Below the pieces are notes generated by a model. That model searched no databases. It saw nothing but the letters and a program-made list of their open reading frames with translations, and was not told where the DNA came from. The position numbers and the translations under genes were made by a program. 64,000 nt of DNA from Nostocales cyanobacterium Centralia_MAG_434. GTDB lineage: Bacteria; Cyanobacteriota; Cyanobacteriia; Cyanobacteriales; Nostocaceae. The stretch is from assembly GCA_021324415.1 (NCBI GenBank), contig JAJPJF010000467.1, positions 1-64,000 on the forward strand. Reading direction: 5' to 3'. Of the stretch, positions 1-5,101 are shown one piece after another; position 1 is the stretch's first letter; every line of letters begins with the position of its first letter.

Positions 1-138
<138 letters not shown>

Positions 139-168
139 TAACTCTGAAATCTTCGATATTTCATAGTT

Positions 169-203
169 AAAAAAGCCCCCACTGATCAGTGGGGGCTTTT
201 CAA
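169..203 (+). terminator. Rho-independent terminator of psbD
   Basis: AAAAGCCCCCACTGATCAGT continues into GGGGGCTTTT, giving a nearly uninterrupted GC-rich hairpin with A-tract and T-tract flanks about 30 bases after the psbD stop. The A-flank means it could work in both directions. Confidence 0.85.
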
Positions 204-229
204 TTCACATAGCAATTCGTATAGGAGTT

Positions 230-281
230 GTAAAAATTCAAAGTCTCAGAATCCCGGTTTCTTCAAGAAATCGGGATTCTC
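230..281 (+). repeat. Dispersed palindromic repeat (CCCGGTTTC family), copy 1
   Basis: A hairpin with arms at 248-263 and 265-280 (AGAATCCCGGTTTCTT and a near-perfect complement). The adjoining GTAAAAATTCAAAGTCTC recurs in inverted orientation next to the copy at 10423-10475, so the mobile or conserved unit is about 50 bp, longer than the hairpin itself. Confidence 0.8.
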
Positions 282-429
282 ATTTTTCACGCGTGATTCA
301 AGAGTGTTATGGCTTCTGGACGGCTGCAGCAAAAAAATCATCAACTAACAACTAAGCACTATCATTATTCCCAAATAGATGTGCTAGTATTAATGAGTAG
401 ATAAAACCAGAGCCACAAGCTCTGCCTTT
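282..429. other. Intergenic stretch with no gene seen
   Basis: Between the palindromic repeat and the structured leader I see no convincing coding frame. A small hairpin (AGAGC / GCTCT, about 409-423) followed by CCTTTTT at 424-430 could be an attenuator or weak terminator just before the structured region. Confidence 0.4.
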
Positions 430-660
430 TTGAGACTAAGACCGCTTAGGCAACAAGGAGGTGATGCCCATGATAGAAAGTAGTAAATGCATGGGTCATC
501 AGGTTGTAGCAAGCCGGCTGTGTGCCGGGGCTGTTCTCTAAAAGTTAGCTTTAGTCTTCTTGCAAAGACTTAAGTAAAACCAAGTAGCTAGGCTAGTTTG
601 GAGTTCCTTCCGGCAGTCTGGTTACAACCTGAAGACCCGCTAGACCGCTCATAAATTAGG
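430..660 (+). ncRNA. Candidate structured leader RNA upstream of the pterin dehydratase gene
   Basis: Several complementary segments lie close together. TGATGCCCATG (462-472) faces CATGGGTCATCA (490-501). TCAGGTTGTA (499-508) is perfectly complementary to TACAACCTGA (623-632), a long-range 10-bp helix. AGTCTT and AAGACT form a local hairpin near 554-571, and CCGG segments near 514-528 form another. The region carries a 23-codon ORF with an exceptionally strong ribosome binding site and precedes the pterin dehydratase gene by about 100 bases. I cannot match it to a known RNA family. The pairing is seen; that it is an RNA element is inferred. Confidence 0.45.
470..541 (+). CDS. Tiny ORF (23 aa) with near-perfect Shine-Dalgarno
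   Basis: ATG at 470 opens a 23-codon frame beginning MIESSKCMGHQVV and ending RLCAGAVL, stop TAA. AAGGAGGTGAT at 455-465 matches the complement of the 16S rRNA 3' tail almost perfectly and lies 8 bases before the ATG when measured from GGAGG, which is unusual because many cyanobacterial genes have weak sites. The start codon sits inside a predicted hairpin (462-472 with 490-501), so translation could be gated by folding. An internal ATG at 491 gives a 16-residue alternative. It could be a leader peptide, a small protein, or chance. I do not recognise the peptide. Confidence 0.4.
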   Translation: MIESSKCMGHQVVASRLCAGAVL

Positions 661-756
661 TCCCTTGATCTAATGTATGAGCGGATAGTTATTTATGGAG
701 ACTTTGTTATTCACCAACAGCCTGAGAACAATAAAATAACAAGGGGAAAGTTTGAG

Positions 757-1041
757 ATGGCAAAGCTACTTACTGAACAAGAAATCCAAGAACAAGTAAG
801 CACTTTATCAAACTGGACTTTGGAAAAGTCTAAGTTACAACTTAACCTTGTTTTTAAGGACTTTGTCGAGGCAATCAACTTTGTGAATCAACTTGTTGAA
901 CCTGCAGAGTCAGCAGGTCATCATCCAGATATCGAAATTTCATATAACAGAGTTAAGCTCACACTTACAACACATGATGCAGGTGGTTTGACGCAAAAGG
1001 ATTTCGATTTGGCAAAGATCATCTCAAGAAATCAAGCCTAA
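757..1041 (+). CDS. 4a-hydroxytetrahydrobiopterin dehydratase (pterin-4a-carbinolamine dehydratase)
   Basis: A 94-residue protein starting MAKLLTEQEIQ. The family dehydrates 4a-hydroxytetrahydropterin in the cytoplasm, recycling the pterin cofactor. The diagnostic signature is visible: ESAGHHPDIEISYNRV in the middle, with paired histidines after the NQLVEPA segment, then LTTHDAGGLTQKDFDLA near the end. An upstream in-frame ATG at 673 would add 28 residues with no family similarity. The start at 757 has AAGGGGAAAG at 741-750 as ribosome binding site and gives the usual family length. It follows the structured leader at 430-660. A pterin synthase-like gene lies 5 kb downstream. Function is confident, physiological substrate less so in cyanobacteria. 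Confidence 0.9.
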   Translation: MAKLLTEQEIQEQVSTLSNWTLEKSKLQLNLVFKDFVEAINFVNQLVEPAESAGHHPDIEISYNRVKLTLTTHDAGGLTQKDFDLAKIISRNQA

Positions 1042-1526
1042 TGTATAGATAAGGCAAATTGTCGTTGTCACTACAGAGCTATAACTTGTAAAAAAAAATT
1101 ATCTAAGTAATAATACTGAGTTATTACTGTCCCATAGACTTCAATGCTAGTTATCACGAAAGAGTAATAGCTAATTTCTGCGTAACACCTCTACTTTCTA
1201 GATTTGATAACCTAATACACGGTTGCACTGACCATCACTGAGTAGGTTTAGAAATGTTAGATGTGTGACAGTTCACAAGGCGACACTAGCAGAGTTCCAT
1301 CCAGAATAGATGTTTTATAATTACTGGATATAGAGTTCTGTTTTTTGCATAAGTTAATGACATATTTTTTTTACCTTAACTTAACTAACAGTTAGCTTGG
1401 TAAAAACTAAAATATGAATGAAGGTAATCTAGCCTCATCCATAGTTTCCAAATAAGAAGATATATTCTCCAAGCTTAGTTGCAGCAAACAAAATTATCTA
1501 AACAAGGTGTGAGGAGAACAGAAAAA
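1042..1526. other. Intergenic region upstream of the porin gene
   Basis: About 485 AT-rich bases with no convincing coding frame. It presumably holds the porin promoter and a long untranslated leader. An in-frame TTG at 1479 could extend the porin by 16 residues, but the signal peptide pattern argues for the ATG at 1527. Confidence 0.4.
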
Positions 1527-3377
1527 ATGTCCAACATATTGTGGAAATCTTTCGTAGCTAGTCCAGCGGTTTTGGCAGCTACACTACTGATTTCAACGAC
1601 GGCGATCGCTGCTCAAAATTCCAACAACTCTGAAGCTGGCAAGACAAAGGCTTTACCAACTGAAAATCAACAAGTTGCTACATCCGCGTCAGCATTAGCA
1701 TCTGACAATCTGCAAACTTCTACATCCGCCTCAGTATTAACAAACTCAACCACCGGCACGAAAGTAGCTCAAAAGTCCGAAACCTTGTCTCAATCAACGC
1801 AGACAAACGATGTCAACGTTCTGCAGCAAGTTAACAACTATAGCAACGAAGGGACTAACAAATCTCAGTCTCAAGTGACATCAGTTTCTCAGTTTTCGGA
1901 CGTACAGCCTACAGACTGGGCATTCCAAGCATTGCAGTCCTTGGTTGAGCGTTATGGTTGTATAGCTGGTTATCCCAATGGGACTTTTCGTGGTAACCGT
2001 GCTATGACTCGTTATGAGTTTGCAGCAGGTTTAAACGCCTGTTTGGATAGAGTTAATGAGTTGATTGCAACAGCAACATCTGACTTGGTACGCAAGGAAG
2101 ACTTGGCTACTTTGCAGCGGTTACAAGAAGAATTTAGCGCTGAGTTAGCAACTCTCCGTGGTCGTGTGGATGCACTAGAAGCACGCACAGCAGAATTGGA
2201 AGCCAATCAATTCTCAACAACCACAAAACTAGCAGGAGAGGCAATCTTTGCGTTATCTGCTCCTCTGCTCAATTCCTCTAGCGATAGAAACCGCGCGGTC
2301 TTACAAGACAGAGTGCGTTTAGATTTGCAAACCAGCTTCACAGGTAAAGACGTCCTACATACTCGTCTAGCTACTGGTAATGGTGGTTTCAGCAACAAAT
2401 TCGATCTAGGAACACGACCAGTTGGACCAGGAGCATTCCAAACATCTGAAGGTACTCAAACCTTCAATATCACTGGTAATGGCACAACCAATAACAATAA
2501 CAGTGTCTCCCTAGATTGGTTGTCCTACTATGTTCCCATAGGACCAGCGCAACTTTATATTGCTGCAACTGGCGGTACTCATAGCGATTATGCTCCCACT
2601 GTCAACCCTTACTTTGAAGACTTTGATGGTGGTAATGGAGCCTTGTCAACCTTCGCCTCCAGAAACCCAATCTATAACATTGGTGGTGGTGCAGGTGGCG
2701 CACTCAATATCAAATTTGGCAAGGGCGGTCTTTTAAGACCAAGTTCCATAACCTTGGGTTACTTGGCGTCTAACCCAAACAACCCTGGTCTTGGTTCAGG
2801 TGTTTTCAACGGTAACTATGCAGCTCTTGGACAGATCAACTTTAATCTGAGTGACCGCTTTGCTATAGCTGCAACCTACGTCCATGGATACCTCAAAGGT
2901 GGAAGTTCTGTCTTTGATGAAGGTGGAACAATCGCTTCCAACTTTGGTGTAGTAGGTACGGCGCAAGCTAACAGAGTTATTAATGCGGCTGAAGTTAACA
3001 GCTACGGTGTAGAAGCATCATTCCGACTCAGCGACAAAATCTCTCTGAGTGGGTTTGGTACCTATTCTGATGTATCAGGTAAAGTCAGTAGGATTGATAA
3101 CTTCCAATCCTGGACATACGGTGGTGGTGTAGCCTTCCCCGATCTTGGTAAGAAAGGTAACGTTTTGGGCTTATTCGCTGGTGCAGAACCCTATGCGCGT
3201 AACAGAAGAGGTTTTGGAGGCAGTGACACACCCATTCACGTAGAAGGATTCTACAAATATCGTGTAAGCGATAACATCTCTATCACCCCAGGTGTGATTT
3301 ATCTCATCTCTCCTGGTCAAAATAGCAACAACGATGACGTGTTGATTGGTACATTGAGAACAACCTTCACCTTCTAA
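1527..3377 (+). CDS. SLH-domain outer-membrane porin (OprB/SomB family)
   Basis: A 616-residue porin for the outer membrane. It starts MSNILWKSFVASPAVLAA, a typical signal peptide with likely cleavage after AIAA near residue 29. GAGGAG at 1511-1516 supports this ATG. A low-complexity Ser/Thr/Asn/Gln linker runs to about residue 118. A single SLH domain follows at about 120-180 (FSDVQPTDWAFQALQSL then YPNGTFRGNRAMTRYEFAA), which binds peptidoglycan or its polymer. A short coiled coil is at about 195-225 (LATLRGRVDALEARTAELE). The rest is a beta-barrel with alternating hydrophobic strands and a terminal phenylalanine (RTTFTF), the outer-membrane insertion signal. Family assignment is firm; the solute is unknown. 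Confidence 0.93.
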   Translation: MSNILWKSFVASPAVLAATLLISTTAIAAQNSNNSEAGKTKALPTENQQVATSASALASDNLQTSTSASVLTNSTTGTKVAQKSETLSQSTQTNDVNVLQQVNNYSNEGTNKSQSQVTSVSQFSDVQPTDWAFQALQSLVERYGCIAGYPNGTFRGNRAMTRYEFAAGLNACLDRVNELIATATSDLVRKEDLATLQRLQEEFSAELATLRGRVDALEARTAELEANQFSTTTKLAGEAIFALSAPLLNSSSDRNRAVLQDRVRLDLQTSFTGKDVLHTRLATGNGGFSNKFDLGTRPVGPGAFQTSEGTQTFNITGNGTTNNNNSVSLDWLSYYVPIGPAQLYIAATGGTHSDYAPTVNPYFEDFDGGNGALSTFASRNPIYNIGGGAGGALNIKFGKGGLLRPSSITLGYLASNPNNPGLGSGVFNGNYAALGQINFNLSDRFAIAATYVHGYLKGGSSVFDEGGTIASNFGVVGTAQANRVINAAEVNSYGVEASFRLSDKISLSGFGTYSDVSGKVSRIDNFQSWTYGGGVAFPDLGKKGNVLGLFAGAEPYARNRRGFGGSDTPIHVEGFYKYRVSDNISITPGVIYLISPGQNSNNDDVLIGTLRTTFTF

Positions 3378-3437
3378 GCTGTTTCTAAGCTCTTGTAGTT
3401 ACCAGCATTTAATAGTCTACGAAATATAAGTATATGG

Positions 3438-3466
3438 CCCCCACTACTAAATTGGTGGGGTTTTTT
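3438..3466 (+). terminator. Terminator of the porin gene
   Basis: CCCCAC (3439-3444) pairs with GTGGGG (3455-3460) and is followed by TTTTTT, 61 bases after the porin stop codon. Confidence 0.85.
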
Positions 3467-3544
3467 GTCTTTAAGTAAAGAAAACAGCAAACCCCAGTGG
3501 AGAGCCGGAGTATACTATAAGAAGTAAAGAGTTATGAGTTCAAA

Positions 3545-3572
3545 ACTCCTAACTCCTAACTCCCAACTCCTA
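3545..3572. repeat. Heptamer tandem repeat (ACTCCTA)n
   Basis: Four period-7 units (ACTCCTA, ACTCCTA, ACTCCCA, ACTCCTA) lie directly before the Rrf2 gene. They can be translated in frame with it from an ATG at 3534, but this is repeat DNA and not a genuine N-terminus. Confidence 0.85.
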
Positions 3573-3587
3573 ACTTTTTATCGCCTT

Positions 3588-4025
3588 GTGGAACTATCCT
3601 GTAAATCTGAATACGCAATTCTTGCTCTACTAGAATTGGCAATTCATCACCAAAGTGGAGAACCTCTCCAAATTCGACAGATTTCATTAAAACAAGACAT
3701 ACCCGAACGTTACTTAGAACAGTTACTAGCGACGTTGAGGCGTGGTGGTTTAGTCAAGAGTCAACGGGGATCAAAAGGTGGTTATTTGTTGGCACGAGAC
3801 CCCTGGAAAATAACAGTCTTCGAGGTTTTGGGTTGTTTGGAAGGGTTAGACGTACAAACAAGTGAGGAAGACACTACACCTAAAACTGTAGAAAGTGCTG
3901 TTATAGAAGAGATCTGGTGTGAAGCACGTCAAGCGTCAAACTCAATTTTGCAAAACTACACGCTTGCCGATCTCTGTGAAAAACGAGACTCACGACAGCA
4001 GAAGGATATTATGTATTACATTTAG
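3588..4025 (+). CDS. Rrf2-family transcriptional regulator (CymR-like)
   Basis: A 145-residue DNA-binding regulator. I start it at the GTG at 3588, giving MELSCKSEYAILALLELA, the canonical Rrf2 N-terminus; an ATG at 3534 would translate heptamer repeat DNA. A winged helix covers about residues 1-75, with the recognition region IPERYLEQLLATLRRGGLV and wing SQRGSKGGYLLA. The IscR-type three-cysteine cluster loop is not present: the cysteines seen are near the N-terminus and in LGCLEG, IWCEA and DLCEK, and do not form CX5CX5C. This points away from an IscR [2Fe-2S] sensor and toward a CymR-like factor. It sits 110 bases upstream of cysK, the known partner of CymR in Bacillus, so a role in cysteine metabolism is inferred. 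Confidence 0.85.
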   Translation: MELSCKSEYAILALLELAIHHQSGEPLQIRQISLKQDIPERYLEQLLATLRRGGLVKSQRGSKGGYLLARDPWKITVFEVLGCLEGLDVQTSEEDTTPKTVESAVIEEIWCEARQASNSILQNYTLADLCEKRDSRQQKDIMYYI

Positions 4026-4069
4026 TCATTTGTTTTTGTCCTTGGGTCTTTGTCCTTTGTCTTCACTAA

Positions 4070-4111
4070 ATGACCAATGACTATTGACCAATGAGCAATA
4101 ACCAATGATTA
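4070..4111. repeat. Heptamer tandem repeat (ATGACCA-type), six units
   Basis: Six period-7 units with drift (ATGACCA, ATGACTA, TTGACCA, ATGAGCA, ATAACCA, ATGATTA), ending 24 bases before the cysK start. This is the short tandemly repeated repetitive (STRR) type known from filamentous cyanobacteria. Confidence 0.85.
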
Positions 4112-4135
4112 TTTACCACTGACAAACAACAAACT

Positions 4136-5101
4136 ATGCGTATAGCTCGTGATATTACAGAACTTGTAGGCTACACACCTCTGGTACAGTTGAACCGGAT
4201 TCCTCAAGCAGAGGGCTGTGTCGCACAAATTGTAGTAAAGCTAGAGAGTATGAACCCTGCGGCATCGGTCAAAGACCGAATTGGCATCAGCATGATTAAT
4301 ACAGCCCAAGAGAAAGGGTTGATTACTCCTGGCAAAACAGTACTGGTAGAACCTACCTCTGGTAATACAGGAATTGCTTTGGCAATGGTCGCTGCTGCAA
4401 AGGGCTATCGATTAATTTTGACAATGCCCGAAACAATGAGTAGTGAGCGCAGGGCAATGTTGAGAGCATATGGAGCAGAACTAGAACTCACACCGGGAAT
4501 TGAAGGTATGAGTGGGGCCATTCGGCGAGCACAAGAAATCGTAGATACCATGCCAAATGCGTATATGCTGCAACAATTCCGCAACCCAGCAAATGTCAAA
4601 ATTCATCGGGAAACCACAGCAGAGGAAATTTGGCAAGATACTGATGGTCAAGTGGATATGATTGTGGCAGGTGTTGGTACGGGAGGTACAATTACGGGTG
4701 TAGCAGAAGTTATTAAAGCACGTAAACCCAGTTTTAAAGCGATCGCTGTTGAGCCAGCCAATAGTCAAGTTTTATCTGGAGGGCAACCTGGACCACATAA
4801 AATTCAAGGAATTGGTGCTGGGTTTATTCCTCAAGTTCTTAAGGTAGAATTGATAGATGAGGTTATTAGTGTCACCGACGAGGAAGCAATTACCTATGGT
4901 CGGCGGTTGGCACGAGAAGAAGGTCTACTCTCTGGGATATCAAGTGGAGCAGCTTTATGTGCTGCAATTCGTGTTGCTCAACGGCAAGAAAACCAGGGGC
5001 GTTTGATTGTTATGGTTCAGCCTAGTTTTGGAGAAAGGTATTTGAGTACACCGTTGTTTCAAGATCTAGAGCCCAGGATAGCTGTCAGCATTAGCCAATA
5101 A
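4136..5101 (+). CDS. cysK: Cysteine synthase A (O-acetylserine sulfhydrylase)
   Basis: A 321-residue cytoplasmic PLP enzyme that makes cysteine from O-acetylserine and sulfide. The PLP lysine is K46 in [11 protein letters not shown]; the substrate loop TSGNTG is at residues 74-79; the phosphate-binding GTGGTITG is at about 180-187; and SGISSGAA appears near residue 266. Length is normal for CysK (about 310-325). It follows the Rrf2 regulator in the same direction and is 12 bases from the J-domain gene, so the three may be co-transcribed. In Bacillus, CysK binds the Rrf2 protein CymR to control sulfur genes; a similar pairing here is inference. A CysM or cystathionine beta-synthase-like role is less likely given the motif set. 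Confidence 0.95.

Follow-up and report, generated by a model that had tools for sequence, protein, structure and literature searches.

A small cyanobacterial RNA gene with a short reading frame predicted to pair with its own 3′ untranslated region

Described systems and the RNA of this study

Dual-function small RNAs such as RNAIII and SgrS are short, structured transcripts with a very short internal ORF, and the leader-peptide attenuators of the trp/tna type combine a short ORF under a strong Shine–Dalgarno (SD) sequence with an overlapping RNA helix and a terminator located downstream. The RNA analyzed in this study, originating from a stretch of DNA of 64,000 nucleotides (the window, i.e., the whole stretch that was analyzed), has features of both groups. 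It is short and structured with a very short internal ORF, as are RNAIII and SgrS; unlike in these RNAs, however, the ORF itself supplies a strand of the principal helix that is conserved. As in the trp/tna attenuators, a short ORF with a strong SD overlaps a helix and is followed by a terminator, but the RNA is free of a tie to a downstream gene, and its helix and terminator do not overlap.

Among cyanobacterial RNAs, Yfr6 of Prochlorococcus is described in the accessible text of PMC1242208, which also mentions RNAIII, as a structured RNA of ~240 nt from two strains with a possible 33-aa ORF beginning at nt 97. It resembles the RNA of this study in its structured nature and in possibly carrying a short ORF; differences in ORF length and distribution were taken to speak against an identity of the two, by description rather than by sequence. 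A closer counterpart is ncl0160, a small RNA attributed to Mitschke et al. 2011a in the accessible text of Brenes-Alvarez et al. 2016 (PMC4734099). There, it is reported to be widely conserved, with a ribosome-binding site always preceding the start codon and a peptide of 23–25 aa (stop codons: 47 TAA, 34 TAG, and 2 TGA of 83), in a survey without the marine Prochlorococcus/Synechococcus lineage. The paper also refers to a predicted structure in its Figure S2. Wide conservation, the ribosome-binding site, and ORF length (97 of 103 ORFs in this study encode 23–24 aa) agree with that description. Stop codon usage also matches (TAA/TAG/TGA: 67/33/2 of 102 in the 103-ORF set and 93/72/1 of 166 in a larger set), although this carries little weight, since similar usage would be expected of many sets of ORFs. 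The RNA and peptide of the window are very probably the published ncl0160, matched by description and not by sequence. In a literature search conducted mostly without full texts, no follow-up work on ncl0160 was recognized. Covariation between the ORF and the 3′UTR does not appear in the accessible text of PMC4734099 and is described here; the conserved ORF:3′UTR architecture and a short form are taken to be new, the RNA itself very probably being known.

Organization of the locus and its long-range helix

As judged from comparative sequence analysis, the region between approximately 397 and 696 of the window is a free-standing small RNA gene, with transcript ends as we infer them. From 5′ to 3′, it consists of an extended −10 promoter, the SD, a 23-codon ORF, a long helix between the ORF and the 3′UTR, a terminator, and a U-tract (Table 1). 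The SD and the ORF had been recognized in the initial annotation of this DNA, and both are present; the terminator and the extended −10 element had been missed, so that both the size and the age of the feature had been underestimated. Its upstream neighbor is the end of psbD (D2, assigned by sequence), and downstream it is followed by pcd (757–1041) and an SLH/OprB porin gene. Folding z-scores relative to shuffled sequence were −5.8 (400–700) and −2.9 (410–652), and the stretch from the SD to a GGGUC motif was highly conserved at the nucleotide level (mean 0.89). After psbD, an inverted repeat (AAAAGCCCCCACTGATCAGTGGGGGCTTTT, 171–200) probably represents a bidirectional terminator; weak Rfam matches to 'sar', 'nse_sRNA', and 'Thr_leader' coincide with it.

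Table 1. Parts of the small RNA gene, with positions in the window.
Feature	Position	Strand	Remarks
Extended −10 promoter element TGTGCTAGTAT	380–390	+	TGTGnTAnnnT conserved upstream of the RNA
Putative transcription start	near 397	+	estimated
Shine–Dalgarno sequence AAGGAGGTGAT	455–465	+	GGAGGTG invariant in 57/57 aligned homologs
ORF MIESSKCMGHQVVASRLCAGAVL, 23 codons plus stop (TAA)	470–541	+	length conserved across loci
Long-range helix, 5′ arm (codon 8, position 3, to stop codon, position 1)	493–539	+	covariation
Variable loop between the helix arms	540–599	+	mean column conservation 0.62 vs. 0.86 in the arms
Long-range helix, 3′ arm, within the 3′UTR	600–638	+	covariation
Intrinsic terminator stem-loop with GA/A internal loop (CUA-GA-CCGCUC...GAGCGG-A-UAG)	640–688	+	covariation
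U-rich tail of the terminator	689–696	+	sequence; U-rich in 55/56 aligned

A DNA search located the region at a single site in the genome containing the window and the RNA in 96 of 100 genomes, the window's own included, representing 31 of the 33 families sampled. With 40 further loci fetched, the resulting alignment A1 comprised 57 homologs. Upstream of the RNA, 33 aligned loci from the family of the window share the conserved element TGTGnTAnnnT; in 34 loci from other families, its conservation is weaker. The 13 pairs of the terminator were paired in 94.6% of 736 cells (i.e., base pairs in individual sequences), compared to 85.2% after shuffling, and nine of them featured double-sided changes; the GA/A internal loop was found in 44 of the 57 sequences of A1. 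A simple terminator scan of positions 300–800 did not flag this stem-loop. Together, the conserved promoter-like element and the terminator indicate that the RNA represents a gene of its own.

Within the presumed 5′UTR of the window (408–431), a terminator-like hairpin (CAGAGC...GCTCTG) followed by CCTTTTT is largely conserved in the window's family. Its CCUUUUU pairs with the SD in the predicted fold, and in this model the hairpin could act early, attenuating transcription or locking the SD in this lineage specifically. When the window is folded freely, as a single-sequence prediction, the SD is mostly paired with the 5′UTR (unpaired fraction 0.20), which speaks against the translation-set fold proposed below.

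In the consensus fold computed from A1 with RNAalifold, the greater part of the ORF pairs with the 3′UTR to form a long helix. This helix comprises 33 pairs, the middle of which is the perfect 10-bp complementarity (499–508 with 623–632) noticed initially. Its cells were paired in 97.1% of 1875 cases (57 sequences), compared to 90.0% after shuffling; double-sided changes were detected for 21 of the 33 pairs (9.3 shuffled), and 137 cells were doubly changed (31.4 shuffled). Sliding the helix by one to three columns caused pairing to collapse to 30–55%, but the structure was derived from the same alignment and is favored over slid versions, above all in the proportion of cells paired, and double-sided changes are stronger evidence for the helix than either cells paired or slides. 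The helix is strongly supported by covariation, and the view that translation must change the fold, given that the ORF overlaps one helix arm, gains from its conservation. Counted from the AUG, the first paired position is +24 in 95 of the 103 distinct ORFs of the main form (seven others have +27 and one has +33) and in all 41 assignable loci of the short form described below (4 of 45 unassigned). ORF and helix lengths match, with the arm extending to nt 70 in 23-codon forms and to nt 49 in 17-codon forms, and the SD and codons 1–7 lie outside the helix. In four loci of one family (f14: L067, L120, L136, and L137), inspection by eye suggests that ORF and inner helix are kept and that the outer helix and usual terminator are missing; the ORF there has an additional Ser codon but lacks the final codon.

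Other pairings fared less well. The initial annotation had the start codon buried in a hairpin (462–472 with 490–501), which turned out to be pairable in 90.1% of cells, equal to the shuffled mean, without any double-sided change; its two outer pairs are broken in 20 and 21 of the 57 sequences, respectively, and the hairpin and the covariation-supported long helix are mutually competing structures. Of the structures whose conservation in relatives had been named as decisive, the long helix and the ORF are conserved, whereas this hairpin is unsupported. A local hairpin in the freed 3′ arm was pairable in 92.7% of cells both as observed and after shuffling, with four doubly changed cells only, and covariation was unconvincing for an SD-presenting stem (AGGn with nCC). 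A local CCGGC/GCCGG hairpin inside the ORF was pairable in 96.8% of cells, often with a wobble or mismatch where the ORF varies, and might constitute an alternative state.

Our preferred reading, to which we assign a probability of roughly 0.45, is that the window encodes, as a gene standing on its own, a small structured mRNA or an RNA of dual function, the fold of which would be set by translation of the ORF it carries.

Coding signal, distribution, and the short form

The foremost competing explanation is a plain small-protein gene, in which the peptide of 17–24 aa would be the product and the helix and terminator would tune mRNA stability and translation. Several observations fit it. Both SD and ATG were invariant in 57 of 57 aligned homologs, although loci were located via an SD–ATG pattern, which none of 71 failed. 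In loci L002–L071, the ORF encodes 23 aa in 66 of 70 cases, 24 aa in three, and is frame-shifted in one. For a set of 103 distinct ORFs, identified with BLAST or a covariance model, the corresponding numbers are 91 with 23 aa, six with 24 aa, five with 17 aa, and one frame-shifted. This set, selected from 126 loci by GGAGGTG, ATG, and a GGG-like motif within 18–38 nt (which excluded L107, L110, and L139), leaves out loci picked by pattern. Stops in codons 2–17 were absent from 87 canonical ORFs but present in 5.3% of column-shuffled recombinants, and codon 3 encodes E or D in 85 of these 87, with all four third bases used. Moreover, ncl0160 is judged likely to be translated in the accessible text of PMC4734099. 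On sequence evidence, translation of the ORF is very probable.

Evidence for the peptide itself is concentrated at its end. Changes at codon positions 1/2/3 of codons 17–23 numbered 28/15/55 in the 87 canonical ORFs and 39/24/98 in the larger set. Omega values, which are rough, being calculated from minimum spanning trees on short sequences, amounted to 0.48 for codons 17–22 in frame 0 (p = 0.021), the two alternative frames yielding 1.83 and 4.52. For codons 17–23, omega was 0.36 (p = 1.6 × 10^−4) in the larger set, which is enriched by pattern. That set includes loci picked with fixed SD spacing, a GAN codon 3, AGTAGT at codons 4–5, and a fixed distance to GGGTC, so that its codon-3, spacing, and +24 figures are partly built in. 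The C-terminal signal is weaker without such loci (p = 0.021 vs. 1.6 × 10^−4), which leaves confidence in the preferred reading unchanged, as it does not rest on this signal. For the main form, omega was 4.3 for codons 2–8 and 1.0 for codons 9–16, and amino-acid constraint was not detectable in codons 2–16, though frame and length are kept. The synonymous-versus-nonsynonymous comparison proposed initially leans to constraint at codons 17–22, where the peptide end of the main form may matter, and finds none at codons 2–16. Outside this C-terminal block, translation frame and extent appear to be better conserved than the peptide.

The small-protein explanation is weakened by the lack of constraint in codons 2–16, by the absence of the C-terminal block from 17-codon forms, and by the peptide, which at E ≤ 1 matched no model in Pfam or NCBIfam. 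Furthermore, omega in the short form was 0.68–0.78 in the coding frame, not significant, and a non-coding frame gave 0.47 (p = 0.008), below the 0.78 of the coding frame, indicating that RNA-level constraint alone can mimic coding signals. A plain small-protein gene is accordingly regarded as possible but rather unlikely, and the structured small mRNA or dual-function RNA is retained as the preferred reading.

To describe the distribution of the RNA, a covariance model of the main form (R1) was applied to 386 genomes drawn from the phylum, 137 of which had matches. Among the families listed, a match was obtained in 11 of the 12 families of the same class outside the order; 229 genomes without R1 match lie outside this family tally, which gives no class-wide rates. 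Two matches were judged to be due to chance, namely L135 in G165 (another class; 29 bits, unrelated ORF) and L134 in G370 (no ORF). The former (L135:1600–1704) has a AAAGGAGGTGATGCCTATG start, a 23-codon unrelated ORF, and then a terminator-like repeat, and the likeness is probably fortuitous. A pattern scan of named genomes yielded at least 117 stretches; 80 are among the matches listed, all with cyanobacterial titles, including Nostoc, Leptolyngbya, Nodosilinea, Microcoleus, and Thermosynechococcus. Rfam 15 had no match overlapping the RNA at E ≤ 1 in positions 1–5000 of the window, nor at E ≤ 0.5 in eight loci. Viral contigs, scanned with two exact patterns, plasmids, and phages likewise gave no match. 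Some lineages have lost the outer helix or the whole RNA. Two nearly complete genomes of 3.8–4.1 Mb from the window's family (G012 and G296, genus g13) had no match even with laxer filters, and the RNA was probably lost in them; draft assemblies may hide copies.

In family f41, which has small genomes and which we take to be Synechococcus/Cyanobium-like, R1 matches were weak, consistent, and ~124 nt long. They follow the plan of the main form: an SD precedes a 17-codon ORF (e.g., MISSCLTQGLLIAENAG), the helix spans +24 to nt 49, and the terminator likewise has the GA/A internal loop. A second covariance model (R2), built from 12 of these short-form loci, had matches in 93 of 151 genomes of the family; four of its genomes of 1.7–1.9 Mb had no match to R1 or R2. 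The stop is located at codon 18 in all 42 ORFs scored from 45 loci, with three loci not counted: L301, which reads 10 aa and comes from a genome that is 71% complete, as well as L307 and L308 (degenerate). The helix was paired in 706 of 730 cells in 43 sequences (without L301 and L308), which differ largely from the main form, compared to 34–50% for slides and 94.1% (maximum 95.6%) for shuffles; as double-sided changes are few, the helix is less well supported here than it is for the main form. Neighbors common to both forms, with psbD upstream in 12 of 45 and the porin gene downstream in 7 of 45 short-form loci, fit homology of the two. L308, a second match in G208 located ~5 kb from an intact copy, is a degenerate short-form copy with the SD lost and an early in-frame stop, in which parts of the helix and terminator are still recognizable. 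In Thermosynechococcus-type loci, the ORF also ends after codon 17, and the long helix was not confidently recovered; these loci, like the lineages lacking the outer helix or the RNA, count against the preferred reading.

Proposed mechanism, gene context, and significance

In a structured small mRNA of the kind preferred here, the ribosome would be the switch. Initiation would take place between the SD and codon 7, outside the long helix. The footprint of an initiating ribosome reaches about +15 to +17, and the helix start at +24 lies beyond it, so that a ribosome could load and would have to unwind the helix to reach the stop codon. By melting the ORF:3′UTR helix to finish the short ORF, the translating ribosome would convert a closed form, in which the 3′UTR arm is hidden, into an open form, in which it is free. 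The translation state, and not mainly the peptide sequence, would then set RNA activity or stability. In constrained folding, the unpaired fraction of the 3′ arm rose from 0.18 to 0.40 with a ribosome at codon 12, but only from 0.18 to 0.27 with a ribosome at the stop codon. Comparison supports the closed fold and its geometry; we infer the switch, the signal, and the target. The local fold of the freed 3′ arm had no covariation support, which counts against this reading and leaves a conserved open structure hypothetical. A further-reaching version, i.e., a translation-gated riboregulator kept across most sampled cyanobacterial families in which ribosome passage unlocks the 3′ arm, is offered tentatively and is doubtful as a whole.

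Alternatively, the RNA might act in trans, with a vestigial or house-keeping ORF and with the 3′ arm or the AGUAGUAA region pairing with target mRNAs. A stand-alone gene with a terminator and the conserved stretch from the SD to GGGUC would suit such a small RNA, but the 3′ arm is hidden by the long helix and the ORF stays open and in frame, unlike a vestige. This explanation is considered improbable.

The order psbD, RNA, pcd, and SLH/OprB porin gene (window 1–3377) recurs in distant cyanobacterial families, and the arrangement looks ancestral as far as the sampled loci indicate; it joins genes for a photosystem II protein, a pterin enzyme, and a porin of the outer membrane in what seems an old linkage. 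Of 135 loci, 61 have psbD upstream, whereas pcd and the porin gene follow the RNA in 47 and 55, respectively; in 48, all three genes were missing from view. These linkage counts are lower bounds owing to limited flanks, and twelve loci without an anchor (3 + 3 + 6) were dropped. By set, pcd was located downstream in 40 of 67, 6 of 23, and 1 of 45 loci, and the 67-locus set contained psbD in 43, pcd in 40, and the porin gene in 37 cases. In several loci, the next gene is located on the opposite strand. The RNA persists without the arrangement and is independent of any one downstream gene.

A transcription attenuator or translation-coupled leader for pcd or the porin gene, the weakest of the alternatives, is very improbable: its proposed targets do recur beside the RNA in distant families, and Pterin_4a and OprB+SLH are both identified by Pfam within the window, but psbD, pcd, and porin gene are all absent from view in more than a third of the loci, neighbors lie on the opposite strand in several of them, and the terminator stem and long helix do not overlap, so that no terminator/antiterminator choice is visible. 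The initial annotation had proposed a translation-coupled leader, or a regulatory small RNA or peptide, controlling the pterin dehydratase gene. Of this proposal, the structured small RNA with its peptide stands; the control of pcd is unsupported, given the promoter-like element and terminator of the RNA itself and the presence of pcd downstream in only 47 of 135 loci.

If the structured small mRNA or dual-function RNA is translation-gated in the way proposed, its coding sequence would be the antisense strand of its own 3′UTR, with a near-fixed helix start at +24, and the RNA would report translation status to a target independently of most of the peptide sequence. ORF and helix lengths would have changed together (23 vs. 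17 codons). The conserved ORF:3′UTR helix turns a listed, unexplained small RNA into a testable mechanism, and the two covariance models, for the main and the short form, would permit its annotation. Being kept across many families of oxygenic phototrophs, and with neither an Rfam model nor a reported function found, the RNA represents a candidate core regulator of these organisms.
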